Shown: piece by piece, positions 1,640-39,100 of the stretch
How positions within the stretch are numbered: the first letter of the stretch is position 1
How the letters are laid out: the number at the start of each line of letters is the position of its first letter
NCBI RefSeq assembly: GCF_026151205.1
Contig: NC_087073.1
Span: 13,597,837 to 13,661,836 of the forward strand
DNA: 64,000 bases
From: Bolinopsis microptera
Lineage: Eukaryota > Ctenophora > Tentaculata > Lobata > Bolinopsidae
Reading direction: 5' to 3'
Position numbers and translations under genes: made by a program
Notes under the pieces: model-generated
Told to the model about the DNA's origin: nothing
The model's input: the letters and a program-made list of their open reading frames with translations, nothing else
The model's database searches: none

Positions 1640-2172
1640 TACTCTCGTCACCAACTGTCAACTCTACTAATATGTCCACCTTTCCTTTATCAGACCAGAC
1701 TACAATATCAGGACGTTCTGCAGTTCCGTAGATGTGCTGGGGGAACTGTGCTGGGAGGTCATCTTCGTCCCAGATAATCTGTCAATCTTGGTCTTTCTCA
1801 AAAGGGCTCTCTCTTTTCATCTTCGTCTTTGGTTTTTGGTAACAGCTGCTAGATGACTTGAAGCCTGTCCAGTCCTGAACTTCAAGTTTAAAATATTTGT
1901 TGCTGAACTTCTCTATTTGATCCATTAGGGATTTTGCAATGACCCGCAGCACGTTGTCATGCCTCCAATTGTATCGTTTGTTGTTCAGCGAGAAGTTGCT
2001 AGCTACCAAAATGTGCTTAATGTTGCAGTGTTTCCATCCGCAAAGTGGACAGTGTCCTGTGTCAGCATAGTTCCAGATGTTGGACAACAATTACCATCGA
2101 ATCTTCTCTTGTCCACTGTACCGCTGTTCCTACAGAGAAACCATTCAAGAGCACTCCACTAGTGACCAACCA
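1640..2172 (-). pseudogene. Degenerate C-terminal fragment of a non-LTR retrotransposon polyprotein
   Basis: On the minus strand, 2090 to 1782 encodes a segment with a CPLCG zinc-knuckle start, a following H, and the RYNWRHDNVLR block typical of retroelement ORF C-termini. After an in-frame TGA the same frame continues with RPDIVVWSD and an ILVELTV block, also typical of these proteins. A stop (TAA) just upstream of 2090 and a frame change towards 2150 show further decay. Only the 3' end of the element is present; no reverse transcriptase core is visible. The clade cannot be assigned. Family assignment rests on recognised motifs only. Confidence 0.65.
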
Positions 2173-2913
2173 TGCTGGTCTATCTTAAGAGATGGTAGTG
2201 ATGGCAGCATCACTGCCTTCCGATCTTTAGCACAGATCGCCATCGATGAACTATCATAGAATTGATACTTATACTTATTAGTGCTCCTTCACCTCCATCC
2301 CCCTTCATGTCCTACATCTCCTTATGACATCACTCCCCCTTCAGCCTCTACTACTCCTTTACTACTCCATCTACTGCCTCATCTTCTGGACATCATTATC
2401 TTCTAGTTTAGTTGAGAATTCTCAACACCCACTTCCAAGTCGAGTACTCTCGACCCACTTAGTCCACATACCTTGCAAACTTACAGCAGGGTATTTGTAA
2501 TGGTCGAAGTCCCTAATACACGCCAAAGATGGTTCCTCTATACTCAACCGTAGGAGAAGAGAATTAGGTGACTGTATTTTGTTCTAATGTTGATATTAAT
2601 ATAAGTATGTTCTAGTTGTTACTCCTTTTGTTTTAACGTTTTTATGGTACTCTCCTTAAATTATTTCAATGCAGTCACTCAGATGATTTTTAAATCAGGA
2701 CACTTAAATAAAGACACATACTCTGCCCACAATAAGGGGCCATAATTTTTAAATTATGTAACAGTATAGAATTATTATTATTATTATTCATAGTTCCACA
2801 GGCTCATGTTTGCTGGAGTATTTTCAACGTCATGGGTTGCATTGAGGTGGAACTTAAGAAGAGCAAGGCTCATCTTGTAGTTGTAAATAAGGTTGTTCCA
2901 ACTTAGGTCTAGC

Positions 2914-2950
2914 TGCATGGTGTTTTCCCATGTTAAGAAAACACCATGCA
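2914..2950. repeat. Perfect 14-bp inverted repeat with 9-nt loop
   Basis: TGCATGGTGTTTTC at 2914-2927 is matched by its exact reverse complement at 2937-2950. It could form a stable hairpin. Function unknown. Confidence 0.75.
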
Positions 2951-3066
2951 TATGATATAATTATAAGAATATAATAGTATGTCACACCTATTTAACTGTT
3001 ATGTTTGAGTAGTCGTGCCATGGCTAAATCTAACTAGGACCAGTGGTGTTGATTAACATTTAATAG

Positions 3067-3111
3067 GTGAGTCTAAGTGAGTCTAAGTGAGTCTAAGTGA
3101 GTCTAAGTGAT
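3067..3111. repeat. Short tandem repeat, unit GTGAGTCTAA
   Basis: About four and a half head-to-tail copies of a 10-bp unit, without interruptions. Confidence 0.85.
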
Positions 3112-4251
3112 CCAAATGGAAAATTTTATGAAAAGACGGATCAAAACACAGATCCAAGGACAAGGAGACCCCACTGCAGGACCATACAATATACATTCTA
3201 GTGGCTAGTGCATGGCCCAAATGTCCAGGATGTCCAGGAAACTGTACGTAGCTGGTAAACTAGTTTTGAATTCAGACTAGGCTTGATGAGTTCTGGGGTT
3301 TCTAGAGGTAAGATTTGATGGTGCCAGGTTTGTTCAGGCGGACATGGAAATTATGCGAGGAATATTATATATTATATAGGTATATAAAAATCATATCTAT
3401 GTAAAAATAGATCCAAAAATAAATCCAAAGATTCACACGGCAGTCAGGGAACTTCCAGACAGGATGCTTTTGAAACAGGTATAATTAGCGCTTTTGTAAT
3501 TAATTGTGTGCAAGGGATGGGATGCTGATTGACTAAGCTGGTTCAATGCCCCAGCTATTTAGGGGGAGCCACTCAATTTCACGCCCAGGTGTTGCCAATT
3601 GCTGGGTTTCAAGTAAAAGCTTTTTGATACGGCTCTTGATAATTGAGATGGGGGAGGAAAGGTCGGAAAATTTAATAGAGCCAGGGACCATGACATTGTT
3701 TTCATTAGGAGTTTAAGCTGATTAGAGCTTATACTTATAGTTATAGTGAATGGAAATCTAGTGTCCACCAAAACGAAACAACGGGCCTAATTCTTGATTA
3801 GTAACATAATAATTGGTTCCCTTTATTCTTCCTAAATTATTCATAGTTCATTATAAGAAACATTTCTAAAAATAACATTCATTAACAAAACTTTTAGAAA
3901 TGATATCTCTCTTAAATCCATCTAATTCAACTTTAAAATTTAAAACTGTTTTAGAGCTCTTGACATCCGGCGCAGAGGGAGCTCTGGAGATTTTTAACAC
4001 TAGTACCCCTCTTACTACATCAGATTTACACGGTCAGATATGCCTATTCCAAATAGAACTGCTGAATAATCTGACAAACCGCTTTAAATAACCATGAAAG
4101 CTTTTAAAAGATTACCACGTACAGGCCACTCTGCCAGGGTTTTGTTTCATCGAAAATTGTATTGTTTCATTGATTCTTGGTAGCACTGAGAAGTACCTGC
4201 GTGTCTTGGCCATTCCAAGCAAAAGTTGAAACTTGTTTTTGTACATTTAAA

Positions 4252-4869
4252 GTGTACATATTATTGACATTTTCTTTACTTGTTTATTGTTCTCTGCTGA
4301 TTGCATCACTATTATTGACATTTTCGTTGCTTGGTTATAATTGTGGTCTGCCAATTGCATCACTTGATTTAATTAAATGTATATTATATGCATTTAATTA
4401 ATTATATATTATATTATATTATATTATATAATTATTATATTTAATATTATATCGTTTGACAATTTTTATATTCATTGTTGAGCATATGAATTGTTCACTA
4501 ATTTCCGCTGCCTGTGTCACTTGATTCGATTGAATGTATCATTTTCTTTCAATCTTAAGCTTATTTCTGGTACTTTCTACTTTAATGGTACTTTCTCGTT
4601 TCTCTTTCAATCTTTATCATGTATTTGTAACATTAATAATTTTTCATGGATGTATATTTATTACTAATCAATTCAGCAGATGAATGAAGAAGATCTTGAG
4701 TCCCAACAAGATGAAATATTGGCACTTCAGAGCATATATGATAGTAAAGAATTCAGAACAAACTATGAAAATCAGGGTATTTTCAATGCCAATGTTCAAC
4801 CAGCTCTTGATTTAGTGGAACTGATAATTGAAGATGACTCTCACATACCCAATTGTCTTACGCATCTTT
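4252..4869 (+). repeat. Upstream copy of a 618-bp direct repeat (LINE target-site duplication)
   Basis: This segment recurs at 11796-13877 once the 1462-bp transposon and its duplicated TA are removed; both copies are then exactly 618 bp. I find four substitutions and no indels by eye. The left end coincides with the last A of the LINE poly-A at the other copy and the right end with the first base of the LINE. It contains the upstream region, splice acceptor and first 63 codons of the RNF14-like gene. The copy lacks the DNA transposon, so it serves as the empty site for that insertion. Confidence 0.9.
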
Positions 4870-4871
4870 AA
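4680..4871 (+). pseudogene. Truncated first 63 codons of the RNF14-like gene
   Basis: The frame starts at the same ATG and splice acceptor as the intact gene at 13688 and matches its first 63 codons except for three replacements (Tyr for Asn29, Leu for Ser45, Glu for Gln51). It reads straight into the LINE, where the first bases form a TAA stop. The product would be only the start of an RWD domain. It arose by target-site duplication, not as an independent gene, but it keeps the original upstream sequence and so may still be transcribed. Confidence 0.85.
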
Positions 4872-4872
4872 A

Positions 4873-5087
4873 CTCACTTCTCAATTTAAACCATTTCTCA
4901 ATTTAAACCACTTCTCAATTTAAACACACTTCTCAATTTAAACTCACTTCTCAATTTAAACACACTTCTCAATTTAAACCCACTTCTCAATTTAAACCCA
5001 CTTCTCAATTTAAACACACTTCTCAATTTAAACCCACTTCTCAATTTAAACTTTTATTTCGTCACTTCTCAATTTAAACTTTTATTT
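4873..5087 (+). repeat. Tandem repeats at the LINE 5' end, core CTTCTCAATTTAAAC
   Basis: About eleven copies of a 17-18 bp unit run from the 5' junction of the element; the last spacings carry an extra TTTTATTTCG insert. Tandem monomers at LINE 5' ends often carry promoter activity in other families; that role here is inference. Confidence 0.85.
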
Positions 5088-5341
5088 CGCCACTCTTTCC
5101 TTAGCTCTCTTATCTTTTTAGATTACACAAACCTTTATTTCAACTTTTTATAACGGTTTTTTCAATCATGTACGATATGGCTTATCTAAGATAATTTTTA
5201 TCCGTTAAAGTTGTGACGTTTTTACCCGTTTTTCTAGAACTTTCCTAACGTCTATGCTATTCAGAGCTTAACACGTACATATTATTTACCACGTGATAAG
5301 GTTTACCGGTAACACTTTAGCTGTGCCCATATTTAACGGTT

Positions 5342-6416
5342 ATGTCGAGTATTTTAGGGTACTTTTCTGGTTCTCCTCCACAGAATTCGGATAATAAAAG
5401 GACCTTAGATGATGTAAGTGCCAGTAGTTCACCTTCTGACAAGGATACCAAACGTCCAAATTTAAATGTTTCAGGCTCTCCAATTAAGTCCGAAGAGCAG
5501 TCGATGGTAACGCTAATAGAAAATCTATTTGTTAATTTTTCTAACCAAACTGTTGCCAGACTGGATGCAATCTCCAATAAACTAGAAAGCTTCGATTCTA
5601 GATTAAATTCAATCTCGTTAAAACTTGATTCGTATGATACCCGAATGTCTTGTATCGAGGAGAGAGCGGGGTCCCATCAGCTCGAAACCACAGATTTGTC
5701 AGACCGTGTCGTTGCCTTGGAAAACTTAAATGTTGAGCTTGAGGCGAAAATAGAAACTCTCTCAGGGTCAAACTCAGCTAACTTAGAGTCAGGATGGGAG
5801 CCAGTAGGTTCTCCTGAGACCAAAATAGCCTTACTTGGTGATTCTAATTCGGGGGGGGAAAATCAAATTCGGACAGGGAAAAGGGACCTTAGGGGCCGCT
5901 TTACCTGGATCCGATACCTTTGTAGCCAAGGTCGAGGATTTACCAGAGCCGGAAACATATAATGGCATTTCTGATCTTATTTTAGCAGTAGGCACTAACA
6001 ACTTAAAAGTAGATTCTTGTATCCCGGAAGATTTGGTCAAATCTACTTTCACCTACATAAGCAAAGTCAGAAAAGCACATCCTTCGTGCCACATCTTTTG
6101 TCCCGGGGTTCTCCCATCTACCTCCACTGTAATCAATACCAGAATCACAAAGTACAACTTTTATTTGAACGATATGTGCCAACATTTACCAAATGCATCA
6201 TACGTAGATATGAAAACGTTCCAAAGCAACAACGGCAAGCTGCTACCGAAATTCTCAGTAGGAAATTCGGACTCTTTTCATCTTAACGAATCCGGCTTGA
6301 AGGTTTATTTTAGCCGACTTAAATTTTCCCTTAGGGCCAGACATGGCCTCCCTAATATCAAAAGGGGTCAACGTAGGCCAAACGATCCTCTAGCAAGCTC
6401 TGGTAACCATTCGTAA
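5342..6416 (+). CDS. LINE ORF1: coiled coil plus SGNH/GDSL-type esterase domain, frameshifted
   Basis: Two overlapping frames, 5342-5962 and the one ending at 6416, make a protein of about 357 residues if one base is discounted. The first part is charged and then forms a probable coiled coil (about residues 70-145). The second part carries SGNH-hydrolase blocks: GDSN (block I serine), GTNN in the block III position and DSFH (block V Asp and His) near the C-terminus. The shift falls at a run of eight G right after GDSN. Such esterase ORF1 proteins occur in CR1/L2-type LINEs, where they are thought to aid RNP assembly. Whether the shift is a mutation, a sequencing indel or programmed slippage cannot be told here. 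Confidence 0.82.
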
Positions 6417-7506
6417 CTGTTATAATATAGCCTATTTCTCTATTTATTTATTAGTTGATAAACTTTTAGTATATCACAGCACTCTAGCGTGTGTTCACTG
6501 TATTGTATTGTATTATCTCGTACGATTTTCGAGAGACCCCTTCAAGTTTTAACACTTAACTCACGCATAGAAATTATGCAGCGTGTGCCTTTTCTTCAAG
6601 TAGTGGTTCACGGGTTCCGTGGGGTGGGAGCTACGTGGTAGGGCTTAAGGGCTCTTCTTCAACTTCTTATCTGTTATTCAGAGTGCGTATCTCCTCATAT
6701 TATTGTATCCGCTAGTTTTTATAATATTGTATCCGTCAGCCTGATTCTATTGAATTTATTATTGATTGACTTGCTCCGTGCAGTCGTTTTCCAGTTAAGG
6801 TAACTTAGTATTTATAAAATTATCCCCTCTCATCATAACACCTGTATAATACCGACGTCGAGAGACCAGTTTTTTGTCCACGTGAGTTACCTCTTTATCA
6901 CCATCAATTTCACCTATTTATTATGTTTTATAGGTATTTTAAAAGGGTCTGTTTGACTCGTACTGATTTTTTGTACAGTGCATTATTCATTATTCAAAAG
7001 TTTAAAAAAATCTTTATAAAGGCTATGCCAACAAACATACAAAAAAAAACTCTTGCTCGGTGTATAACCGGTATCTATAAACATTATGATATAGTTGCTA
7101 TCATTCTCATTTTGTTCTAGATTTTCTGATCTTCTATCTGCTACAGTTTCGGGTAAACTGTCACAACTTCTCCTTGCGACGCGTTCACTCATGTTTCCTA
7201 GATACAGTGTGTTTCTCACCTTGCTACCTCGTCACTTCGATTATTGGTTCTACTATTATTCCAATAATAACTGTTATAATAAGGGCGGGGCCAGTGTAGG
7301 TTGTAGTACAAACAGGCTGTATTATTGTAGAAATTATTTTTCTACGATCGTTTTCCGTGTTTCTATGTCGCGTGTGCATGTTTTTTGTGTTATTTCCATT
7401 GTATATACTCATTTTTTCACGACACCATCACCTTCATTTCTGGGGTTTAATTCAGGGGGGGTAAAAAGCTACACTAAGGAAGGGCGGGGCCATTTTCAGA
7501 TTAACA
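6417..7506 (+). other. LINE inter-ORF spacer (1.1 kb), no convincing gene
   Basis: A frame at 7095-7523 (142 codons) overlaps the start of ORF2 by 17 bases but resembles nothing I know and has skewed composition. The spacer is long for a LINE. It may contain signals for ORF2 translation; none is recognisable. Confidence 0.5.
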
Positions 7507-10500
7507 ATGACTCCGCAAAATAACAGCAATAGTGGGTTGGCATGCCCAAAAATCGGTTCTTTTAACTGCAATGGTATGGGTAACCCGATTAAACGTAATC
7601 TTGTTTTAAACTGGCTTAAAAATAAACCTGAGCAAATCATTTGTCTCCAAGAAACACACTCAACTCCTCAAGTTGAGAGAGACTGGAAACATTCTTGGGA
7701 TGGGGATATAATCTTTAACCATGGCACTTCAAACTCCACCGGTATTGCCTTCCTTGTTAAAGCTGATGCTCCGAATCTCCATATTATTAACCAGCGTAGC
7801 ATCAGCCAAGGTCGTGCGACCCTTGTCGAGTTAGAATACGACTCTCTCAAACTGTGTTTAGTGAATGTCTACTGCCCCAATAATGACGATGTTTCATTTC
7901 TCGAAAACGTATTTCTAGAATCACTCAGTCGTGCACGAGATGATCATATAATATTTGTGGGAGACTGGAACACGGTTCTGAACAACATGTTGGACAAACA
8001 GGGGGGGTCTACCACCCATGCAAATAGTCGCTGCCAGAATTTTCTCAATGATTCCATTAACGACTATGGGTTTAGTGATATTTTCCGTCTTAACAGAGGT
8101 GCTGAGGCACGGGTTTTTACTCATTTTAACAAAAAGTACAAAACTCAGTCTAGATTAGATTTTTTCTTGATCCAAGATAGTCTGGTCAATCTACCTGTAT
8201 GTGATACAGAAATAAGCCATGGCTATAAATCTGATCACAGCTACATCTCGCTATCCCTCCAGGGCTCTACTATTGCACACGGAAAAGGATATTGGAAAAT
8301 TAACAACTCTCACCTCCTAGATCAAAATTTTATTAACGAAATAAAGAAAATCATTCATAATACAAAAGAAGATAGCTTTGATTCTTACAGGGGTCTTTGG
8401 GACGTTATAAAAATCAAAATAAAACAGTTTGGAATGACCTTTGGTAAAAAGAAAAAAAAAGAAATCACATTGAAAAAAGAAAAGTTAAAAAAAGATATTG
8501 AAGACTGTAAAAACGATTCGAATCTAGTAAACTGTACGATACTACAGAAGAAATTATTTGAAGCAGAGTTGGATTTAAATCATATTATAGATCAGGAGGT
8601 GAGAGGTGCAATTACCAGATCACGTGTGAAATGGACAGAGGAGGGGGAGCGCTCGACTAAATACTTTTTTGGACTTGAAAAATCAAACGGCAAGAAAAAA
8701 TGTATTAGTAAATTGATAGACAACGACGGAAATGAACTAACGGACCAGGATAACATCTCTAGTCACGTGGTTAACTTTTATCAGGATCTGTATAACTCAA
8801 CTAACCCATCTCCCACTGAGATAAATAATTATGTAACCAGCATCGAGCTTGAGCAAATCCCACAGGAAATTACTGAAACTCTGGAGGGACCTATTTCGTT
8901 ACACGAAATGGATGCTATTGTGAACAATTTAACAAACAATAAATCCCCAGGTTGGGACGGGTTATCTGCTGAATTTTATAAAACCTTTTGGTTGGATATC
9001 AGGCAGATCATTTACGACTGCTATCTAGAATCTATTGACAGTGGATGCCTGTCGCCTTCGCAGAGAATAGGTATTCTTACTCTTATTCCCAAGCCTAAAA
9101 GCCCAGTGGAACTTAACTACATAAAAAATTGGAGACCTATTACTCTGCTTAACATTGACTATAAAATCTTCACACATATAGCTAAGAATAGGATTATGAA
9201 AGCTATCCCCAGCATAATCAGCAAAACCCAGTCAGGCTTTCAAGCAGGCAGGAGTACAGCAGATAATCTTATTCTCATGTCAATGGTTCTGGAATCATTT
9301 AACAACGACTCGGAACAAGAGGGTCTCCTTTTACAGATTGACTTTGAAAAATGTTTTGACTCGGTAGAACATAACTTTGTCTTCAGTACGCTTGAAAAAT
9401 TAGGTTTCAGTGATTATATTATTAAGTTGATTAAAGTGGCTTTTCAAGCGTGCTTTAGCTACGCAAATATTAATGGGTTTTTAAGCGCACCTATTTATCT
9501 CCTCAGAGGTCTTCATCAGGGTAGCCCACTCTCTCCTATTCTATTTCTACTTGTGGCTCAAACTTTCTCGAATAAACTTCAGATCAACCCTAATATCAGG
9601 GGTATTAACATATCTGGTGTGGAAATTCTACAGAGTCTCTTTGCAGACGACACTGATCTGTTTCTGAAAGCTTCAATAGAGAGTGTAGAGGCAGTTATGG
9701 TAGAACTCAGAACGTTTGCTCAGTGCTCGGGGTGTAAAGCTAACATCGACAAAACTAGATGTATTCCTTTAGGTCGTGCTCGCCTTAATACAACTCTTCT
9801 AGCGTCCCTTCAAATGGACTACGGCGATGATTTTATTACAAATAACTTTACGGCTTTGGGTATAGTTTATAGGAATGATGGCTCACTTATGGATATAGTC
9901 AACAGTAATTATAATGATAAATTGATTAAGGTTCGGTCTTGGATTAACAGGTGGAACAAGAGGGATCTGACGGTAATGGGTAAATGTACAGTTATCAAAA
10001 CTCTCCTCTTTTCCCAATTAACATACCTGGTTCCTCCTCTCCCCAGACCAGATGCTTCCTTTATCAGAACTTTTGACACGATTATATTCCATTTTCTTTG
10101 GGGTTGCAAACGGGATAAAATAAAACGTGAAATCATAACCCGAAACAAGGAACATGGAGGCCTGGGACTATTTTATTTATCCGATTTTATTATAGGTCTT
10201 AAAACTAGTCTTATTTCAAAGCTACTAAATGATTCCTTTCACCACACTTGGAAAGATATTATGATAATGCAACTGAAATTTCCCGAGCATATCACCATCT
10301 CTGTAGAAAACGGTCTCGCAAATATCAACTGTAATTTTACACAGGACGTACTTGATTGCTACACTGAGTGGAAGATTAGTTCGGCTAATGCAGCCTTGGG
10401 TTCTATTGATCACTGTGTGTGGTCCAACCCAGCAATAACTGACATCGGGTCCAAACTTTGGAACAATCATCTTATTGATAAGGGAATATTTTACATCTCA

Positions 10501-11286
10501 GATTTCCTTTCTATAGATCAAAGTACAGTCCTTAACTACGATATGTTCATGAACAAGTGGGAGCTGTCTCCGAATACGATTTCCAAAATTGATTACTGTA
10601 ACATTATCATGGGGATACGGAGATATAACTGTCCCACGATTAACTCAAGGAATATCGAATTTGTTGACCCAAATATAAAACTTCGATTTTTACATTCTGC
10701 AACTGGGCAGGTGAAGGGAAGCAAAATTCGGGATAAAATGTACGATTCTATTTGTCCAAACGAGCTGTCTCCTTTACGTCAATGGGTTGTTGACTTGAAC
10801 AGCCATTCCATCGATTGGGCAGTCGTTCTAAGCAACCTGTTTTTCTTAGTATCTAAAAACTTTAAGTTGATTCAATTTCAATACAAACTCTTAATGAGGA
10901 TCACAACGTGTAGATACATGAGACATAATATGAAAATTGTTACAGATACTCCCATGTGTAGCCTGTGTAACACATACTTAGAAACAATTCCTCACATTTA
11001 CCTCCATTGTATTCACACAAATAGCTTCATCACATTACTTGAAGACTTTATTAAAAGGAAAATCGATAGTAATTACGAAGATCCCACTAAAATTAATTTT
11101 ATAGTCTGTAATCACACTTCACAAATTATAAATTATTTTAATATCGTTGCCAAATGGTACATTAGCAAAAAATTTCAGGCAGGAAACTTGCCGATCTGGC
11201 AGGGGTATATCAAACTTCTTAAGCTATCACTTACAGGAGATAAAATAGGTCACAAAAGTTCTATTGTGTCGATCTTGGCCGATTAG
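7507..11286 (+). CDS. LINE ORF2: APE endonuclease-reverse transcriptase, intact, 1259 aa
   Basis: Domains in order: APE-type endonuclease (residues 15-250; SFNCNG, LQETHS with Glu49, VGDWN, SRLDF, and the SDHS block holding the catalytic Asp-His), a lysine-rich linker, reverse transcriptase (about 480-760; SPGWDG, NWRPITLLN, QSGFQAGRST, IDFEKCFD, HQGSPLSP, and FADD at 712-715 as catalytic Asp pair), and a C-terminal region with HGGLGL and a zinc-knuckle-like CSLC...H...C from residue 1151. No stop interrupts it, so the protein could be active. The enzyme nicks target DNA and copies the element RNA at the nick. The C-terminal zinc knuckle and GGLGL block favour the L1/Tx1 group by recall. Confidence 0.93.
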   Translation: MTPQNNSNSGLACPKIGSFNCNGMGNPIKRNLVLNWLKNKPEQIICLQETHSTPQVERDWKHSWDGDIIFNHGTSNSTGIAFLVKADAPNLHIINQRSISQGRATLVELEYDSLKLCLVNVYCPNNDDVSFLENVFLESLSRARDDHIIFVGDWNTVLNNMLDKQGGSTTHANSRCQNFLNDSINDYGFSDIFRLNRGAEARVFTHFNKKYKTQSRLDFFLIQDSLVNLPVCDTEISHGYKSDHSYISLSLQGSTIAHGKGYWKINNSHLLDQNFINEIKKIIHNTKEDSFDSYRGLWDVIKIKIKQFGMTFGKKKKKEITLKKEKLKKDIEDCKNDSNLVNCTILQKKLFEAELDLNHIIDQEVRGAITRSRVKWTEEGERSTKYFFGLEKSNGKKKCISKLIDNDGNELTDQDNISSHVVNFYQDLYNSTNPSPTEINNYVTSIELEQIPQEITETLEGPISLHEMDAIVNNLTNNKSPGWDGLSAEFYKTFWLDIRQIIYDCYLESIDSGCLSPSQRIGILTLIPKPKSPVELNYIKNWRPITLLNIDYKIFTHIAKNRIMKAIPSIISKTQSGFQAGRSTADNLILMSMVLESFNNDSEQEGLLLQIDFEKCFDSVEHNFVFSTLEKLGFSDYIIKLIKVAFQACFSYANINGFLSAPIYLLRGLHQGSPLSPILFLLVAQTFSNKLQINPNIRGINISGVEILQSLFADDTDLFLKASIESVEAVMVELRTFAQCSGCKANIDKTRCIPLGRARLNTTLLASLQMDYGDDFITNNFTALGIVYRNDGSLMDIVNSNYNDKLIKVRSWINRWNKRDLTVMGKCTVIKTLLFSQLTYLVPPLPRPDASFIRTFDTIIFHFLWGCKRDKIKREIITRNKEHGGLGLFYLSDFIIGLKTSLISKLLNDSFHHTWKDIMIMQLKFPEHITISVENGLANINCNFTQDVLDCYTEWKISSANAALGSIDHCVWSNPAITDIGSKLWNNHLIDKGIFYISDFLSIDQSTVLNYDMFMNKWELSPNTISKIDYCNIIMGIRRYNCPTINSRNIEFVDPNIKLRFLHSATGQVKGSKIRDKMYDSICPNELSPLRQWVVDLNSHSIDWAVVLSNLFFLVSKNFKLIQFQYKLLMRITTCRYMRHNMKIVTDTPMCSLCNTYLETIPHIYLHCIHTNSFITLLEDFIKRKIDSNYEDPTKINFIVCNHTSQIINYFNIVAKWYISKKFQAGNLPIWQGYIKLLKLSLTGDKIGHKSSIVSILAD

Positions 11287-11757
11287 GGCAATATGTCCAC
11301 TCCATTTTTATTGCTGTCTATGTTATTTAATTTTTATCGGTTATTGTTACAATCTTGCAGTACTACTAGTAGCTGTGTTTTTGTAGTACATGCCCTGCTT
11401 CCTTCCTTTCCTAAATTCCTTACAGGCTCCTCCAGCCTCCTCTCTTAAACCCTTTTCTCTCACTTCATTTCACTCATTCACTTCATATTTTATTACCACA
11501 GTATCTGCCAAAACCAACATGGCCCAAGTGGAAGGGGGCCTTGACGTTGTTTCCCGCTTGGCCCTGCATCCCATGCTGACTGTCGGCCTCCACTCTAAAA
11601 AAACTTACCTTCAGTGAAGGCCGATGGTCGACAATTAGCGATGTAAGAGCTTGGCGGGAACAAATCCTGTCCTCCTTTTACACCTTCGGGACGACTTTCG
11701 CAAATGCGAGAGGAACGACCCGAGGAGGGCTCCATTGGTTTTAGTAGGTTGCATATT

Positions 11758-11795
<38 letters not shown>
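11287..11795 (+). other. LINE 3' UTR and 32-A tail
   Basis: After the ORF2 stop come about 480 bases without a coding frame, partly pyrimidine-rich (11385-11470), then 32 uninterrupted A at 11764-11795 that abut the downstream target repeat. No AATAAA is needed or seen immediately upstream. Confidence 0.75.
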
Positions 11796-11797
<2 letters not shown>

Positions 11798-11965
11798 GTA
11801 CATATTATTGACATTTTCTTTACTTGTTTATTGTTCTCTGCTGATTGCATCACTATTATTGACATTTTCGTTGCTTGGTTATAATTGTGGTCTGCCAATT
11901 GCATCACTTGATTTAATTAAATGTATATTATATGCATTTAATTAATTATATATTATATTATATTA

Positions 11966-13427
11966 CGGGTATCGGCCTTACAAAATGACACGAAAAAGGA
12001 GATGGCTCTGAAATGCACAAAAATGAGTTTTTTTCATGTTTTATTATCCAGATAGGTAGTTCAACAGGTATATTTTTCTTCCCGGGGGTTGATTTGATTG
12101 AAAAACCGTAAATTTTGCGATAAAAATTGTCATCTTTGAAATCTTCCAAAAAAACATGCCTTACAAAATGACAATTTCGTCACGGCTGTCATTTTTTAAC
12201 AGCAGCCTATAGAAATTTGATTTCACCTAGGACAGTTAGATAAATATAATAGATTGAAGATTAGAATAGCTTTTACAGGAAAAAGGATGATTAAAAAAAG
12301 TTGGGCAATTTCGCGTGAGATAGTGCCTTACAAAATGACAACCCAAAACGGCATCACTTCAAATCCGATTTGGGAAAAAGTTTCATTATTCTTTCACGTG
12401 TCTTACTGTTAGATATATATGTTGTTTATATTATACCAGTTCTGTTTTTACCAGAATATATTAAAAAAGGAACATTTTTTATACTTTAAAAAAACTTTAA
12501 AAATGTCATTTTGTGAGGCGTAAAAACCATTTTTTGTTTTCATACTTGAACACAGTATTTGGTTATATTTGATATTTTCTTTGACTGGATAGATCACTTT
12601 TCAGTGTTAAGTTAACGTTTGACATGTTTTAGGAGTTGTTATTACTCTCTGCTTTCACAAAATAGAAGCTTTATTTCGTTGAATTTTGAAATCAGAGTTT
12701 GAAATCAAAGAGTTTGAAATCAATGTTTTGATATCAGAACTGCACTTTTTTAATGTTACTTGATTGTTAACTGTCAGATTATGATTATTTTTAACTCCTT
12801 CTTGTATTGACTGCTTCTGATCCATTTTAGATGATGAAAGTAATTCAATCTGAAACATTGTCATTTTGTAAGGCTTTTCGGTGTCATTTTGTGAGGCATT
12901 TTGATCAAAATTGATGATCAAACAAACACATTTAGGCTCATCATAAGCTTACTGGGTTTAAGAATACCAATAATTAGGCAAGGGGCATCCAATATAAATA
13001 TGCCATCTTTGTATCATAAAATAAAACTGTCATTTTGTGAGGCATAACACTGTCATTTTGTGAGGCTAGGTCATTTTTTTGTCATTTCTTCTACCAAAGT
13101 CACTAAATCAGTTTTTTTATTTGACCAGAGTAGTCTTTGATTGACATAAGTCATGGTAGTACCTGGTTTTCTGGGGTTAAATTCTAAACTTTGGTCTCCA
13201 TTCTGGGTAACAGTTAGGCGGGGCAATGACTGAACAGCAAAAACGTCCATATTTATGTAAGAAATATAGATTCTATGTCATTATCATTCCTTGGGAAGTG
13301 TTAATTAATGCTTTTTCTTTCATACAGTAAAAGGAATAGGGTTCAATGTATAGGGAACCTAAGCTACAGCATGGTCTATGTGGGCTGTCATTTTGTGAGG
13401 CCTGTCATTTTGTAAGGCCGATACCCG
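11966..13427. mobile_element. Non-autonomous DNA transposon, 1462 bp, 25-bp perfect TIRs, TA duplication
   Basis: The ends are perfect 25-bp inverted repeats (11966-11990 and 13403-13427) beginning CGGGTATCGGCC. Comparison with the empty site in the upstream repeat shows the flanking TA was duplicated. A TA duplication points to the IS630/Tc1/mariner group, although the CGGG end is not the usual CAGT type, so the superfamily stays open. No frame longer than 88 codons and no transposase motif is visible, so it probably depends on a partner. It lies in the upstream region of the RNF14-like gene, about 260 bp before the ATG. Confidence 0.88.
11975..13418. repeat. Ten copies of TGTCATTTTGTRAGGC inside the transposon, orientation switching once
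   Basis: Copies in reverse orientation: 11975-11990, 12158-12173, 12325-12340. Copies in forward orientation: 12504-12519, 12859-12874, 12882-12897, 13028-13043, 13051-13066, 13386-13401, 13403-13418. The outermost pair is part of the TIRs. All left copies face one way and all right copies the other, with the switch between 12340 and 12504. Arrays of subterminal motifs are commonly transposase binding sites; that is the likely role here. Confidence 0.9.
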
Positions 13428-13670
13428 TATATTATATAATTATTATATTTAATATTCTATCGTTTGACAATTTTTATATTCATTGTTGAGCATATGAATT
13501 GTTCACTAATTTCCGCTGCCTGTGTCACTTGATTCGATTGAATGTATCATTTTCTTTCAATCTTAAGCTTATTTCTGGTACTTTCTACTTTAATGGTACT
13601 TTCTCGTTTCTCTTTCAATCTTTATCATGTATTTGTAACATTAATAATTTTTCATGGATGTATATTTATT

Positions 13671-13687
13671 ACTAATCAATTCAGCAG
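13671..13687 (+). promoter_or_regulatory. 3' splice acceptor touching the ATG of the RNF14-like gene
   Basis: ACTAATCAATTCAGCAG ends directly at the ATG, with a branch-point-like ACTAAT. Either a spliced leader or a 5' UTR exon is joined here. The same site is present in the duplicated copy before 4680. Confidence 0.6.
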
Positions 13688-15073
13688 ATGAATGAAGAAG
13701 ATCTTGAGTCCCAACAAGATGAAATATTGGCACTTCAGAGCATATATGATAGTAAAGAATTCAGAACAAACAATGAAAATCAGGGTATTTTCAATGCCAA
13801 TGTTCAACCAGCTCTTGATTCAGTGGAACTGATAATTCAAGATGACTCTCACATACCCAATTGTCTTACGCATCTTTGTACGAAAGCAGACAATACAATT
13901 GTCTATAATGTCAAGCATCTTCCTCCTATTGTATTGAAATTTGAGTATCCTCCGGGTTATCCATCTTCAGCATTTCCAAAGCTATCTCTTTCTTGTATCT
14001 GGTTGCCCGATAATATGTTGCAACAAGTCAAAGAACACCTAATATCCGATTGGGAGGATACTAAAGATGTTATTTTGTTTTCTTGGACTTCATTTCTTGT
14101 GAATGACATTTGGGACTATCTTCAACTTCCCAACAAATTAGTTTGTCCTGAATTTATTTCAGAAGATATAATTGGGCAATTATGCGTATTTGACTATGAA
14201 AAGAGATTGTCAGTGTTCAGCCAGTCTCCTCATAAATGTAATGTATGTTTTGATGAATACAAAGGATCTCTTTGTATGCAATTTTTACCTTGTGATCACG
14301 TCTTCTGCAAAGTATGCATGAAAAGCTATTTTGAGGTATTGATCAACTCTGGAGATGTAAACCAGTTGCTTTGCCCTAATGACAAATGTGATTCTTTAGC
14401 GCTTCCTACTCAAGTTAAGGAACTTGTTGAAAGTGACTTGTACGAGAAATATGAACGATTTTTATTGCAGAGGACTCTTGACCAAATGTCAGATGTTGTA
14501 AGATGTCCCAGGAAGTTTTGTCAAAATTCTGTCTTGAAAGATGTTGACTCGAATATGGCTCAGTGTAACAGTTGTAATTTCATCTTTTGTGTGTTGTGTG
14601 ATAAAACATGGCATGGAGAACATACCCCGTGTGAAATTCGTAGCTCAAAATACATTGAAATGTATGATAAATGGAAGGCAGCCAATGAGGCTGGGCAGGA
14701 AGCAATGTATAAAATGTACGGAAGAGCGAATGTTTTAAGGATTGTTGCAGACATAGATTCAGCCGATTGGCTGAAAACCAACACAAAACCATGTCCTTCT
14801 TGTAATACTCCATTACTCTTAGGGATGGGCTGTAATAAGATAAAGTGCTCTGTGTGCAGCAACTATATGTGCTGGCTCTGTGGACTGAGAATTCAACCTA
14901 ATGATCCCTATTCTCATTTTCGACCTGGTGGACCTTGTGAAAACAGATTGTTTGAGAATACAGACACTGGAGTCGAGGATGACTGGATTTTCAACGATGA
15001 TAATATTGATAATGGTGTGCAATTTCTTGAAAATGGAGATGATGACTGGATTGAAATTGTTTTTCAGGACTGA
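13688..15073 (+). CDS. RNF14: RNF14-like RBR E3 ubiquitin ligase, 461 aa
   Basis: RING-between-RING ligases take ubiquitin from an E2 onto a RING2 cysteine and pass it to substrate; RNF14 acts on translation-stalled ribosome factors and in nuclear receptor co-regulation in vertebrates. Order here: RWD domain (about 5-148, with YPPGYP), RING1 (184-234, CNVC, CDHVFC), IBR (about 260-315, with CNSC...CVLC), RING2 (369-398, CPSC...GMGC...CWLC) with Cys382 at the catalytic position. Acidic C-terminal tail. Human RNF14 is 474 residues, so length fits. The gene has no intron in the coding region. Codons 1-63 lie in the downstream copy of the LINE target duplication; the rest is original single-copy sequence. 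The first ATG follows a splice acceptor and matches the family N-terminus. Confidence 0.93.
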   Translation: MNEEDLESQQDEILALQSIYDSKEFRTNNENQGIFNANVQPALDSVELIIQDDSHIPNCLTHLCTKADNTIVYNVKHLPPIVLKFEYPPGYPSSAFPKLSLSCIWLPDNMLQQVKEHLISDWEDTKDVILFSWTSFLVNDIWDYLQLPNKLVCPEFISEDIIGQLCVFDYEKRLSVFSQSPHKCNVCFDEYKGSLCMQFLPCDHVFCKVCMKSYFEVLINSGDVNQLLCPNDKCDSLALPTQVKELVESDLYEKYERFLLQRTLDQMSDVVRCPRKFCQNSVLKDVDSNMAQCNSCNFIFCVLCDKTWHGEHTPCEIRSSKYIEMYDKWKAANEAGQEAMYKMYGRANVLRIVADIDSADWLKTNTKPCPSCNTPLLLGMGCNKIKCSVCSNYMCWLCGLRIQPNDPYSHFRPGGPCENRLFENTDTGVEDDWIFNDDNIDNGVQFLENGDDDWIEIVFQD

Positions 15074-16023
15074 TCTTATTTCTCACCTCAGACATCAGGG
15101 AAATTTAAATAAGTCTTGCAACCTTAGATTAAAGAATGCATTGCAATATTCAATAATTTCTCCAACCTATACTGGGAATACCTTTCTTTTGTTGTTGGGT
15201 TAATTAATTGAAATTAATTGAACAGCCTTTAATTATTATATACAGGACTTGTGGGCAGGTACAGTTTTACAAATTAGGTATTTATGAACTAATTATAAGA
15301 ATTTTTTGTGAAGTTGGTATCTTCTCTAATCCCATCTAGTGTGTAATTAATGAATGGGGGAAGTTAAACTTTCCTGCTAGGGGGATATGGAACAATTTAA
15401 GTTAGGGTACCTTATAACTAATATGACTATTCATTTATATGAACTCGTTTAGATAAAATAATGTTTGTTAAGTGATAGAATGAGGTTACTGTAAATAACG
15501 GGAATGTAATCTGTTTAGAAAACGTATAATAATTAGTAGTGTTTTTATGATGTAGTTTTTGATGATTTTATGAAAGTTTTTTTACAATGAAGTGTTTTAT
15601 TTGCATTCGTCATTCAAAATTCTTTTAAAAGTATGTTTTACTGACTCTTATTCACTGCAACTGTAAGGATTTATGAAAATTCAGTGTTGACTAATTATTC
15701 TTTTCCAAACTTTACGGCTTTCAATAGGTTATTATCCTCCCTTATATTATATTAGGGCCTGATATAATAGTATAGGCAATTCATAACAAATTTGAAATTT
15801 ATCCCTTTTCAATTCAATCAATCTTAGGGTAGCCTATCACATTATGAGCCTATCACATAGTATCACAAGCATCTCAAAAGTATAAGATGTTATAAGAAAT
15901 CATTAGTACTGAATGTTAATTAATTTAATGTTCTATAACTTATTCAGAGTGAAATTACAATTTTCATCCAATCTAATTCCCAGGATAAAGAATCGGTAAG
16001 ATCTAAACAGACTTTTCAGCAGC
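15074..16023 (+). other. Intergenic spacer between the RNF14-like and CWF19L2-like genes
   Basis: AT-rich, no coding frame. ATTAAA at about 15129 could serve as a poly-A signal for the upstream gene. A splice acceptor ends the spacer (16012-16022, CTTTTCAGCAG), one base before the next ATG. Confidence 0.5.
16012..16022 (+). promoter_or_regulatory. 3' splice acceptor 1 nt before the CWF19L2-like ATG
   Basis: CTTTTCAGCAG then C then ATG; either AG could be used (1 or 4 nt upstream). It is the same TTCAGCAG string as in front of the RNF14-like ATG. Confidence 0.6.
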
Positions 16024-33100: not shown

Positions 33101-36100
33101 TGTTGTTCTTGAGAGATTGGGCGGCTTTCTTTACTTCATCACATGTGATGGGTATGTCTAGGCAGCGTCCATCCCCTATAAATGCTTGAAGTGGTTCATC
33201 CTCACACGTGAACTGCTTTTCGTAGTAGTCTCTGATCACTTGAGCTTTACCAGCATCTGTGGCAACAAAGTTACCTTCTTCATTGTGGACACTGATAGTA
33301 GATTTGGGCTTAGTGTCAGCTAGAGTACGCACAGCTTCAAACATCTGCCTTGTGTCATCTGTTGACATGATGGTTCGAGCGATGTCATCGGCACGTGTGT
33401 CAGCAAGGTTCTTGAGATGCTTACGGATGTCTTTCTGTAACCTGTTGATCCTTGTACGGACTTGAGTTCTGTCAGCAACTTGGTTGTTACAGTTAAGTGC
33501 AGCTTGCAGGGTTTGTCTCTCTTGTGTGATTGTAGGAAAGATTTTGTAGTAGGGGGCTAGTTTGATTTTACAAGCAACGAGTCTGTGGTCTGAGTTAGTA
33601 GCAAGACCGCCATATGCTCTACAATCTTGGAACATGAATCTGCTGCGTGTTCTGCACAGAATATAATCTAATTGTACCCATTCCAAAATTGCCCATATAC
33701 TCTGTTACACCATACTGATAGTCCAAAGGAGATAAGGTTCCCAACTTACTGTTGAGATCACCACAAACAAACAATTCATGAGATGCAGGAACTGAAATAG
33801 CATGGGTGAGTTCTCTGTAGAACTTTCTTAGAAGGGCAGGGTTTCCTTCTGCTTTAGGATTAGTCGGGCCATAACCGTTAACAATTCTGATATTTTTAGG
33901 ATGGGATGAGAGATTAGAAGGAATGACGACATTAAGATAGGAAACCCGGTCTGAGGTATACTGATAGTCTGTGACATAAGGTAGTAATCTAGGACTTATG
34001 ATGAAACCTAGTCCACCATGTCGTCCTTGATTTTGCTCCATCATGATCAATTTGTAATTGTTTCTGAGATATCTAGTGGAATGATTTTTGACTTTTGTCT
34101 CTTGAACGCACAAGATATCAACACTATATTCAAAACAATCCGTTCCGAGTTCTTCCTGTTTCTCCGTCTTAGAGAGCCCTTTTGCATTCAGTGATGCTAG
34201 GCTCAGTAAGGAAGTAGAAGAAAACTTTGAACTCATAACTGTCTCTTTCTGCTTATTATATAATATATACGACCAACTAGATTTTTATTCGAAACGCGTC
34301 GAAAAAACAAAACTTCAAGATGAAATATGAATTGATCGATTTAGATCATAAAATGTAAACTCTTATTAAACTATAAAATTTTCACCAGAATGATAATTAT
34401 ATGCAATATCTAGTATCTACACTAAGCGACAAGAAATTGAGCAATATGAAATGTCTATATTTTATTTATAAGAGTTATAAGAGTTATAGCCTGCTAAGTT
34501 GAACTGAATACAGACCCGCTCAGTAACCCAGTTATTAACATCCCGTTTGAGCCAGAACCCTTTGATGCCCCCTGGGGCTTCTAAACCTACTCTATCAGGC
34601 ACTGTGACCTTGGTCCCATCAGCTGTGGTCCCTGACAGTATAAAGTAATAAAACATGTCACGTGCTAGGAATGTGTTGTGGAAATGTATACCAGTCCCTT
34701 CATAGTCCTCATCTGCCTGGCACAGTTCGTACTTCTTGAACATAGGCATGCGAGCGTTTTCGTGTGAGCTCCTAATTATAATCCCGCATCTTCCCGTCTT
34801 ATCACACTCTGCACCGATTGGTTGATTGAAAAAGAAAAGATGTTTATGAGTAGAACCAGCTGTTTCCTCTATACATGTTTCTTCTGGTATAAGAAGGCTG
34901 TCACTACCTGAACAGAAATCTTCATCTTCCTTGATGCAGTTCAGGATGCTTATAAGATTCGGCTTTTTATTATCACGTGAATAATAACTATCACACTCAT
35001 GTCAGTTGAATGGATCAAAGCGGTAGTTATCATGTCCACATACTGATGAGACACTTTCTGTATGCGGGTTTTCTTTAAGCAATCTCTCAGTGCAGCAAGG
35101 AAGCTTTCTTTTTTGGTTTCTTGGAAAGGAAAACTTTTAATGTAATGACCTAAGAATTCGACTACTTCAAACATGGATTTCACTCTACCATTTTTGATTC
35201 CATTTATTATTTCATTAAGGTCCATGCAGTCTAAAATAAGCTGAGCGTTTTTCCAATTATCAAAAACCACATTTGACCGAGCTGTTTCCTTACATTGTTT
35301 CAATATGAAGCTATGATCTTCTGGCTTTAGTTCTCTCAAGCTAAATAGACATTCAAACAGCTGATCGATGTGGAACTTATGTTGAGACCAACAAAGTTGC
35401 AGATCAAGGTTTTGTAGCAGAAACTTCATGTTTTCATCAAGTGATTCTTGGAAGACAATATTGTATAACATATTGTTCACGAAAACCAATTGGTTGCTTC
35501 CACTCATCTTCAACAACAAATCTAATTGAACAGTATCCAGCTTATTGACTCCCTTTACAAGATTTTCCAATTCTTCCTTAATATACCAAGATACAAACTC
35601 GCTTACATCCTTCACGGCTAATTTCGAAATCAATGTTTCTATCATACCCTTTTCTTGGTCTTCCCATTTTCGAAGGACATTTAAAGACACTCCTCAAATG
35701 CAAACAAAATTTCCTTGAAACTGTGTTCCGTTTCTTTACTGTCGAATCTGGAGAAAAGCCAGTTTTCGACAACCTTCTTTTAGATGCTCAACCTCAAAGA
35801 CGACTGCCATCTTATGCAATTCCCTGAACTGTGATTCTTGTAGCTCGTTTACTTGGCTATCATCAAGATTGCGCTAAAAACAGTCCTACCACATCGGGGT
35901 CAAAGTCATCCATTTCAATCTCATAGAAATGGAGCTCATCTATGAGATGTCGGAGGAATTTACTGTTCTTTGTTAACCTTTCTTTTTCAACACATAGTGG
36001 GTCACCGTCTTTTATCTTTATCACAATTAGTCTCTCCTCCATGATGCTGCAATATATAGTCAGAAACTCAAACTTGGGTGGATTACGCAATAAGTAAAAA

Positions 36101-39100
36101 AGGTGTATGGAAGCGTTTAATAAATGCGATGAGACAATGTCGACTGCATACATTATCTAACAACATAATCAAACGGTGAGATGAACATTTTTCAGATAAA
36201 GAGTACGCTAGGAAGAAAACATGGCTTATCGTTATTATATCATCTACTTCTTGTTCTGAAGGGGATGTGAAATGTAATACGAGATTGTTACTCAATACTG
36301 CAAATTTATGATTTACTAGATGACATGTGGAATTATTGTGCTAGTTTTATTAAATTTTTATGTAACAGAAAGTTAAATATGAGTTACCTAATGACGCAAT
36401 TGTACGGTATTACGTGTGATTAATCATGCAACAAGAACAACAGCGATAATAAAGTATCCGTATGCAGTTTAATTGATGTCAGCAGCAGCTTCATTCTTTA
36501 ATAATGCTGTATCATTACCATCAGCCATGTTATAGAATATTGCACCTGTTATTACACCTGCATGCAAAACGTCCTTTATTGGTGGTTACGCTAGGTTCTA
36601 GGTTTTGTAAGCTAATGTGCTGATGTCTTACAATTTTAATCACTTCATCAGGTATTCGAGAAATTACTTTTGGTCCATTTGTATATCTCCGATAGGACGC
36701 TACATGCAATATTACAATAATAATGACATTAAATTTAAAATGTCTTTGTAAAAATGTCTTTGTAATAAAAGTTAAAACTAAAATCTAATTAATCACAATG
36801 CGTGCACCCTTGGAAGTCGAGCTTGCTCGTTGATTATTGATTCGAAAACATCGTAATATGTCAATGGTGCATTCACAGTACTACACAACGATAATACGTC
36901 TTCCCATCAGAAATATATATATTATAACCGGTACTGAACGAACATACGTTCTGTTATCCAGTTGTTAACATATGGAAACCATCTTCTGGATGAGTTGGCC
37001 GCCCTCTCAGGGACTTTGTCTCGAGCTCCCCTACCTTTACTACCAGACACTACGGTGTAGTAAAACATGTCATGTGCAGACACTGAATCATGAATGTGTA
37101 CATCAGTCCCCTCATAGTCCTTACTTTCCGTACACAATTCATCTTGCCAGAAGTTGTTGGGTCCACTTGAACTCCCTCTCACTATAAAGCCACAATTACC
37201 CGGTATTGTACAGTCAGGAACAGCAGGGTGCTTGAAATAGAAGAGGTGTTTGTAAGCAGAACCAGCTGCCTCTACTACACATCTTTCTTCCGGTATCAGA
37301 ATGTTGTCAGTTCCGCGTGAACACAGGTTAGAATCTCCCTTAATAAAGTTCAGGAGGTTTATAGCCAAATCCGCTTGCCATAAAGGTGAACGGTTCAAAG
37401 CAGCAGATATCATCCTCACATATTGAACTGAAACTTTCCTCGTGTTGGAATTCTTGCAACTGTTTTTGAGTGCTGCTTTCAACTCCAAAACGTCCTCTTC
37501 CTTCGGAAGCTTTTTTATTGAATAGCATGCGTGTAGTATCAGCTCAATAACTTCGTACATGGATGTCACATCCCTAATGTTAATAACATCTGCTATGCTC
37601 TGCAATGTTGCACAATTTGAAGACAGCAGATGATGTTTCCATCCATTGAAGAGGACAGTCTTCTGTAAAGACACTAAGTTGATTCTTGCAGTTCCTGAGG
37701 TTGTTGGAGTGTTCGAGGTTGTGGTACTCTCTGTTATTATTAGTGGCTTTATAAGCATAAGGCTGTCTGTGGCTGTTGGATTTGATACGCTTAACAATGA
37801 CTCAACGCCTCCAACACTTTTAGAACGAGCCAATCTAGTCGCGTCCATAAACAGTTTTGATATCAAACGTAAATCCTCATTCATCACGGCTTTCAGGCCA
37901 TGTAACTTATCAAACAACTGATCGTAGAGGTCCTGGTTCTGGCTACAACAAAGTGGTAAATCAATATTTTGTAGGAGAAACTTCATGTTCTGGTCAAGTG
38001 ATTCCTTGTTTTCAAGATTGAACAACATGGCTTCTAAGAAAACCGTTGTGTTATTTCCATTAATTAATCTTAACATAAAATCCAACTGCACAGTATCCAG
38101 CTTATCCATGTCTTCAAGATACTTTGATACAAACTCGCTAACATCCTTCAGGGCTAATTTTGAGATTAATGTTCCTATCATCTCTTTTTCTTCGTCTTTC
38201 CATTTTCTATGGACATAGAGGCACTCCTCGATTGCGAACAAGCTTTTCCCGTTATTTAAACTTTGTTCTGTTTCTTCAGTGTCCAGTCTACTAAAAAGCC
38301 AGTTTCGACAACCTTCTTTTAGCCACTCAACCTCAAAGACGACTGCCATCTTATGCAATTCCCTGAACTGTGATTCTTGTAGCTCTTTTACTTGGTTATC
38401 ATCAAGATTTGCTAAAAACAGTCCTACCACATCGGGGTCAAAGTCATCCATTTCAATCTCATAGAAATGAAGCTCATCTATGAGATGTCGGAGGAATTTA
38501 CTGTTCTTTGTTAACCTTTCTTTTTCAACACATAGTGGGTCACCGTCTTTTATTTTGACCACAATTAGTTTCTCCTCCATAGTGCTGTAATAATAAATTC
38601 AGGATACAGCCAGAAAATCAAAGTTAGGTCAGGAAGGGAGTAAAGCAATTTATTTAATTTGTTGTTGTTGTGTTTCATTTTTTGTTGAAAGATAATCCGA
38701 GGAAAATAAAGCAACTAATGGAGAAATTAAGCAACTGGTGATATTAAAATTGTCAGTGAACAATAAGAAATAGCAGATGCAGTAATTCAGAAGAATAATG
38801 CTGTCAATGACTGAACTTAGACTTAATTTCTAGACCACCTGCACCATGCGTGAGTTGACTGAGTGGGTAAGGCCAAAGTAGAGCTTATTTTTAAACGAAA
38901 AAGAACTTAAGCTAAAATTCTACATGAAATTCTGCAAAATACAAATAAATACATTGCCTCTTACAGAAATGTATTAATATTCAAAGAAAGAGTGCGCGCA
39001 GGAAGGGAAATATTACAAAAATAAATAACGTTATTATGTTATCTTGTTTCACAGCAACGAATATATCTTATGTTCAGGAGAAGGGGGGGGGGGGGGACCG

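Follow-up and report, generated by a model that had tools for sequence, protein, structure and literature searches.

A complete LINE flanked by a 618-bp duplication in the ctenophore Bolinopsis microptera

LINE integration typically leaves a target-site duplication of about 10–20 bp, and the source of the second break during integration is described as still unclear (PMC6895275). How, then, did a LINE in Bolinopsis microptera come to lie between two copies of a 618-bp stretch? The element is found within a 64,000-nucleotide stretch of contig NC_087073.1 (the window), in the following arrangement.

4249..4251, + strand: AAA common to the repeat and the poly(A) tail, with the putative first nick at TTT/AAA on the bottom strand.
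4252..4869, + strand: upstream copy of the 618-bp target-site duplication (self-BLAST, ungapped comparison).
4870..11795, + strand: 5'-complete LINE with poly(A) at its end (junctions, genome searches for copies).
11796..13877, + strand: downstream copy of the 618-bp duplication, split by a TA-flanked element (self-BLAST, ungapped comparison).
11966..13427, no strand assigned: later insertion of 1462 bp with 25-bp inverted ends and a TA duplication, from a dispersed family (repeat comparison, genome search).

The original prediction held that the repeats are exactly 618 bp with four substitutions once the 1462-bp insertion and its TA are removed, and that they end flush with the LINE 5' end and tail. 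Self-BLAST of the window aligned 4249–4421 with 11793–11965 at 100% identity and 4420–4869 with 13428–13877 at 99.1%. Removing 1464 bp (1462 plus TA) from the second copy gave a gap-free comparison of 618 bp with four mismatches (first-copy positions 4449, 4764, 4813 and 4830), a 99.4% match in full agreement with the claim; judged from sequence, chance is not its source. At the left junction ...CATCTTT is followed directly by the LINE, and the right junction reads poly(A)|GTGTACAT...CATCTTT|GTACG. The flush ends are thereby confirmed, except that AAA at 4249–4251 can be assigned to either repeat or tail, which makes the duplication 618–621 bp long. The repeat was not seen to reach past the LINE at either junction. 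The later insertion has perfect inverted ends (27 bp with the TA counted), and its first 535 bp are part of a dispersed element: of 195 candidate places 40 were scored, including the copy in the window, every one at 98–100% identity. The window is also rich in repeats of other kinds.

The coding capacity of the element is contained in two regions.

5342..6416, + strand: ORF1 region in two reading frames, with a weak GDSL-like match in the second part (ORFs, Pfam).
7510..11286, + strand: ORF2, open for 1258 codons from 7510, with an APE-type endonuclease and reverse transcriptase (ORFs, Pfam, solved-structure comparison).

In ORF2, PF03372 and PF00078 both score above the Pfam cut-off, and among solved structures the best match is human L1 ORF2p (aligned residues 15–893, 321 bits), which likewise combines an endonuclease with a reverse transcriptase. 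Unlike human L1, ORF1 yielded no L1-type RNA-binding domain in Pfam when its two parts were searched apart, although the frame break may hide a match; the GDSL-like match in its second part reaches 23.1 bits against a cut-off of 32.9. The label ‘L1-type’ in the original prediction holds for ORF2, but no L1-type domain was found in ORF1. The poly(A) of the window LINE adjoins the right duplication copy, with a nick site that is T-rich on the bottom strand; the tails of a few others (L015, L017) mix A with T. Truncation at the 5' end is common (20 of the 24 copies examined from 3'-end matches). The predicted endonuclease and reverse transcriptase, the poly(A) with its T-rich nick site and the frequent 5' truncation place the element among the APE-type LINEs. 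A duplication of ~10–20 bp, a length that is typical of such elements and not defining, is absent at the window copy (618 bp) and at the copies on C13 (566 bp) and C10 (397 bp).

We surveyed duplication lengths in 30 copies: four 5'-complete copies of the subfamily and six of a sister subfamily, on all of which two genome searches agree, and 20 truncated copies, the sample for the last coming from 24 of the 40 scored 3'-end places. C9:14676150 (which matches 174 bases of the 5' end), C10:5346076 and C10:14425376 are left out, as are two divergent copies (L044/L045 and L046/L047), dropped because no 3' end was found. Three of the four complete subfamily copies have long duplications of 618, 566 and 397 bp. 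The 566-bp pair on C13 is identical and the 397-bp pair on C10 has two mismatches, and both run from tail end to LINE 5' end; the fourth copy (L027) has a duplication of 15 bp. In the sister subfamily, complete copies show 8–17 bp in five of six cases, the sixth (L032) lying inside a satellite. Truncated copies show 8–19 bp in 16 of 20 and 14 bp within a satellite in one (L022); no flush duplication was found in the other three (L010, L017 and L051), a 10-bp match 62 bases beyond the 3' end of L010 being left uncounted. Because L032 and L022 lie in satellites (periods of ~365 and ~191 bp, from match spacing), their duplication lengths are ambiguous, with minima of ~12 and ~14 bp. A 1-kb duplication at L051 was rejected, as two separate copies of another repeat lie there.

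Resolved short duplications are thus found in 22 copies, at 8–19 bp. Long duplications occur in three of four complete subfamily copies versus none of 17 truncated copies (Fisher p 0.003), and in three of nine complete copies overall versus the same 17 (p 0.032); these post hoc tests include only three long cases, count L022 as short, accept truncated copies down to 91% identity, and leave out L010, L017 and L051 (no duplication found) and the satellite copy L032. Since L027 and five complete sister copies have short duplications, 5'-completeness does not require a long one. In a FastTree tree of LINE positions 5551–6880 (15 copies, L022 dropped as incomplete), the long cases WIN, L018 and L019 did not group, so a change in the LINE specific to one lineage is not favored.

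Could the duplication be older than the insertion, with the LINE landing on the border of a 618-bp tandem or segmental repeat? Other kinds of repeat are common in the window, which lends this idea some plausibility, but the C11 palindrome, a LINE-free relative of the window stretch, has one 618-bp copy per arm, unbroken across both edges, and two further sites, whose target sequences differ, show the same flush arrangement. We find an older duplication barely credible. The single copy in the LINE-free palindrome argues that the duplication arrived with the LINE; its arms are probably one molecule and so count as one witness. No LINE-free locus carrying the duplication was seen, the palindrome being the single LINE-free relative found of the whole stretch. 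For the other two long cases, LINE-free relatives cover the right edge only: those of the C13 target cross it without the LINE in three of the four fetched (L053, L054 and L057; L055 is gapped there), and those of the C10 target in two of two, one by only 19 bp. The original prediction had also raised the objection that other copies might be short, with a separate segmental duplication here. The 22 short cases fit its first half, but the flush 566- and 397-bp cases elsewhere speak against the second and make a separate segmental duplication at the window unnecessary.

The C11 palindrome is itself a likely assembly artefact of the locus. With one such artefact in the assembly, the repeat in the window might be another, for example two haplotypes placed in tandem. 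However, nothing about a misjoin would make it abut poly(A) at an endonuclease-like site on one side and the LINE 5' end on the other, let alone three times. Between paired copies there are 0 to 4 mismatches, unlike raw-read error; an artefact is very improbable. We are instead confident, from the sequence evidence, that the long target-site duplication arose during the insertion by way of a distant break, whatever the location of that break.

The 5' end of the window LINE bears on how the cDNA was completed.

4867..5051, + strand: array at the LINE 5' end with a period of 18 bp, a constant core and variable 3–4 nt spacers, followed by one longer unit (self-BLAST, array comparison).

The initial TTT of this array could be part of the duplication. 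At some LINE 5' ends the terminal 16–21 nt of the copy itself recur in arrays, separated by variable spacers, a pattern that looks like re-copying of the template end by the reverse transcriptase with untemplated spacers left behind. Array length showed no link by eye to long duplication, L026 and L027 having long arrays and short duplications. In those parts of the open-access literature consulted, we found no description of 5'-end tandem arrays of LINEs. If the arrays do arise by iterative re-copying of the template end, they would link LINE and telomerase behavior in a directly testable way.

At the first nick the long cases read ttt|AAA, ttc|AAG and ttt|AGA, similar to the 22 short cases, where T or C precedes the nick in 18 and A follows it in 21, a count inflated by assigning any A shared with the tail to the duplication. 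The second-break sites of the three long cases (CTTT/G, CCGT/G and CAGC/C) show no clear common motif. We read these data, a small sample, as a break of the opposite strand 400–620 bp away, favored when cDNA synthesis gets as far as the RNA 5' end. Target-primed reverse transcription would start at the bottom-strand site TTT/AAA (4251|4252), and the usual opposite-strand cut ~13 bp away would not be made in time. The reverse transcriptase would then proceed to the RNA 5' end, the new cDNA end would be joined to a break in the top strand, several hundred bases further downstream, and filling in would double the stretch between the two breaks.

The original prediction offered two routes, second-strand cleavage about 600 bp from the first nick or a different way of resolution, and the sequence is compatible with both. 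We lean towards the same duplex as the place of the distant break. It may instead have been on a sister chromatid or at a replication fork, with cDNA from one chromatid joined to a break 618 bp on in the other. Such a route yields the same flush structure, the sequence being alike for a distant nick, and duplications of engineered L1 in NER-deficient human cells range from hundreds of bp to >6 kb (PMC5223499). It should, however, also yield duplications of a kb and larger, whereas the three sizes fall in a narrow band of 397–618 bp; larger ones could be missed only in L010, L017, L051 or the satellite copies L022 and L032. We regard this route as rather unlikely. Less probable again is a route with one nick, in which the cDNA end would pair, 618 nt downstream, with the unwound top strand and be extended back to the first nick with no second cut. 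The left end of the duplication would then be the first nick by construction, and the possible 3-nt TTT overlap to the LINE array at the window 5' junction would fit, yet the other two 5' junctions have little or no overlap and ~600 bp of duplex would have to be unwound.

Given duplications of 618, 566 and 397 bp versus the usual 8–19 bp, the late insertion steps of this LINE appear to run by two routes. In a tentative and somewhat doubtful extension of the distant-break reading, an early close cut would stop reverse transcription prematurely and give truncated copies with 8–19 bp, while a missed cut would allow finished cDNA, often with telomerase-like re-copying of the RNA 5' end, and its capture by a break 400–600 bp away. 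The resulting complete copies would double several hundred bp of host sequence, which here include the start of a gene.

Exceptionally long duplications for a LINE have been described in R9 of bdelloid rotifers, at 126 bp (PMC6895275); R9 is rDNA-specific by the title of its paper, whereas the LINE here has varied targets, and its duplications vary in length and are three to five times as long as that of R9. In chicken DT40 cells, ZfL2-2 similarly makes short duplications as a rule, with one long case (1228 bp) among 25 wild-type insertions, but its full-length copies came only from NHEJ-deficient cells, and we found no link drawn there between full length and long duplication (PMC2666801). 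Among 66 full-length human L1 copies, duplications are 10–20 bp with two exceptions (PMC4245944), in contrast to three of four long in the subfamily here. Long duplications are already known from engineered L1, mainly in repair-deficient cells, and the LINE here is a natural variant. In NER-deficient cells, engineered human L1 gave duplications >100 bp in 57–91%, versus 33% in complemented cells and at most 10% in HeLa, and a distant nick of the second strand was proposed (PMC5223499). Those insertions are like the ones here in their duplications (hundreds of bp to kb), mostly endonuclease-like sites and mostly present poly(A), but they arose in cell culture (PMC5223499), whereas here they are natural, long in three of 30 copies, all three 5'-complete, and in a genome with a Rad4-family match. 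This XPC-like match, located in an open frame of 768 codons, scores 31.4 bits (cut-off 27), and absence of XPC from the host finds no support.

Finally, the insertion affects a gene at the target.

13688..15073, + strand: intact RWD-RING-IBR reading frame of 461 codons (ORFs, Pfam domains).

We take this frame to be RNF14-like, the domains themselves coming from Pfam. Of the upstream 618-bp copy, 428 bp are 5' flank of the gene and the remaining 190 bp the beginning of its coding sequence; there the frame ends after 63 codons, with a stop at the LINE junction. Since the start of the gene lies within the duplicated stretch, the reading frame was restored intact on the downstream side of the LINE. 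Insertions with long duplications copy a gene start whole, and so a coding exon can receive the LINE and still be left with an intact frame. This natural family, whose duplications fall into two separate classes of 8–19 and 397–618 bp, offers a test ground for the second break.

The original prediction placed the LINE of this window (C2:13597837-13661836, forward strand; genome total 264.65 Mb) flush between two 618-bp copies of host DNA with four substitutions, the right copy holding a later 1462-bp insertion with its TA. Both points were confirmed. Pairwise alignment of 4252-4869 with 11796-13877, inserted element set aside, gave four differing sites and no gaps; the AAA at 4249-4251 is common to the repeat and the LINE tail.

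4252-4869, + strand: left 618-bp copy, stopping at the LINE start
4870-11795, + strand: LINE, flanked by the 618-bp copies
11796-13877, + strand: right 618-bp copy, beginning at the last A of the LINE tail, split by the 1462-bp element with TA
11966-13427: dispersed element, 1462 bp, with 25-bp inverted ends and a TA duplication

Inside the dispersed element TGTCATTTTGTRAGGC recurs many times, on either strand, and the element occurs at no fewer than 40 near-identical places in the genome, its own included. Elsewhere in the window lie a ~480-bp direct repeat (35590-36063 and 38126-38602; 88% identity, 2.5 kb apart) and a tandem array at 43449-44092 with a period of ~62-64 bp.

ORF2 of the LINE is open for 1258 codons from 7510 and encodes APE-type endonuclease and reverse transcriptase domains, its closest solved structure being human L1 ORF2p (321 bits). 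ORF1 is split over two frames and has at most a weak GDSL-like match, under the cut-off. The target is the start of a gene with computed RWD-RING-IBR domains, which we take to be RNF14-like. The left copy encodes 63 codons of this gene and then a stop at the LINE junction, while the right copy runs on into the intact frame of 461 codons, ending at 15073.

On contig C11, two stretches continue unbroken through the equivalents of window 2796-4869 and 13878-15366, with a single 618-bp copy and without the LINE. They are the arms of one imperfect palindrome resembling the C2 locus (L029, C11:3177000-3186999, centre near 7892), and we count them as one witness. Each arm is ~88% identical to C2, yet only 80.5% to the other. 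We tested one arm: its mismatches in two genes hit each codon position about equally often, the ratio of transitions to transversions is 159:298 and indels are chiefly of 1-2 bp; mismatch counts vary with the gap penalty chosen. The differences are error-like, and the palindrome is probably a fold-back long read from a LINE-free allele that entered the assembly unpolished, though it might be a genuine palindromic duplicate. Read artefact or true duplicate, it documents, at both edges, a locus with one 618-bp copy and no LINE. The four copy mismatches can be polarised only loosely from the arms, which have the copy 1 base at 4449 and 4813 and match neither copy at 4764; at 4830 the one arm having a base agrees with copy 2. 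Against window 1982-2789, the palindrome has one extra and one missing stretch of several hundred bp.

Our 3'-end search scored 40 places of 155 candidates, and 24 of those 40 were examined, window included (4 complete, 20 truncated). Two 5'-part searches returned 13 and 16 matches, some diverged or partial, and both gave the same four complete copies of the window's subfamily (5' UTR 95-100%) and six of a sister subfamily (5' UTR 88-89%). Direct repeats at the ends of these ten were long in three, short in six and in satellite in one.

Target-site duplications of complete LINE copies
Subfamily, window (C2): 618 bp, 4 mismatches
Subfamily, C13 (L030/L019): 566 bp, identical
Subfamily, C10 (L031/L018): 397 bp, 2 mismatches
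Subfamily, C3 (L027): 15 bp
Sister: L034, 13 bp; L036, 8 bp; L038, 13 bp; L040, 17 bp; L042, 8 bp
Sister, L032: sits in satellite

Among truncated copies, 16 of 20 have duplications of 8-19 bp, and L022, in satellite, has 14 bp; in the other three (L010, L017, L051) a duplication was sought at the LINE ends and not found. The median short duplication is 13 bp (22 resolved copies). LINE-free relatives cross the right edge, the only edge covered, of the C13 target in 3/4 fetched and of the C10 target in 2/2. The C13 target is partly made of dispersed repeats, and for the C10 target five other partial matches were seen. The reading of the 618-bp repeat as a target-site duplication made with the LINE insertion is supported, and strengthened by the 566- and 397-bp cases.

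Against the window LINE, L018 (C10) and L019 (C13) stand at 97-99% in the 5' UTR and 95% in the 3' UTR, and are possibly mosaics. Four copies are interrupted by other sequence, with LINE positions overlapping by 3-8 bp at the break (L019, 5028/5026; L018, 5510/5506; L015, 6070/6063; L022, 5759/5755), as expected of later mobile-element insertions.

Duplications of APE LINEs are generally 10-20 bp, and that of R9 is 126 bp (PMC6895275). Engineered L1 is described as making duplications >100 bp in 57-91% of its insertions when the cells are deficient in XPA, XPC or XPD, in 3/9 in complemented cells and in <=10% in HeLa (PMC5223499). A Rad4-family match was found in this genome.

The first-nick context is TT/R-like on the bottom strand, alike in long and short cases, and the step setting them apart would be the second break. 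We favour a distant second break in the same duplex: the close cut would fail, the cDNA would be completed, and the distant break would then be reached. Joining of the cDNA between sister chromatids and a one-nick route without a second cut would each lead to an identical end product. Long duplications occur in 3/4 complete subfamily copies (3/9 complete copies of both subfamilies) and in 0/17 truncated copies, an association noticed after the fact that is only suggestive of a tie to 5'-completeness.

Some 5' junctions also carry arrays. These were sought with a repeat finder at 11 loci and in the window, and by eye at the junctions of the remaining truncated copies.

Tandem arrays at the 5' junctions of four copies, with periods of 17-20 nt
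L025: 6459-6577
L026: 7023-7224
L022: 1564-1616
Window: 4867-5051

In L025, seven identical 15-mers separate the short duplication from the LINE, with six spacers of 1-2 nt (AC, TC, C, GC, GC, AC) and then a final longer step. L026 has nine identical 18-mers ahead of the LINE's own 18-mer (spacers CT, CA, CAA, TAG, CA, CA, AA, CTA, CA), and L022 has two 18-mers. The unit is each copy's own 5' end, within ORF2 in L025 and L026 and between the ORFs in L022. Complete copies have 11 (window) and 15 (L027) cores with varying spacers, 5 (L040), 3 (L036) and ~3 each (L032, L042); L030 and L031 show short partial 5' repeats by eye, and no array was seen at the L034 and L038 junctions. A more distant relative (L046, C5:21388400-21389900, LINE on the minus strand) has three ~95-bp units at its 5' end; its LINE 3' end was not found. 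Our literature search for LINE 5'-end arrays found no report, which does not exclude one. R2 polymerase is described as adding untemplated bases at template ends (PMC2718515). Later DNA slippage would not be expected to yield constant units with changing spacers, as seen in L025, L026 and the window. Because units stay constant while spacers change, the arrays suggest re-copying of the template end, in which reverse transcriptase would jump repeatedly from that end back into the template, adding a few untemplated bases.
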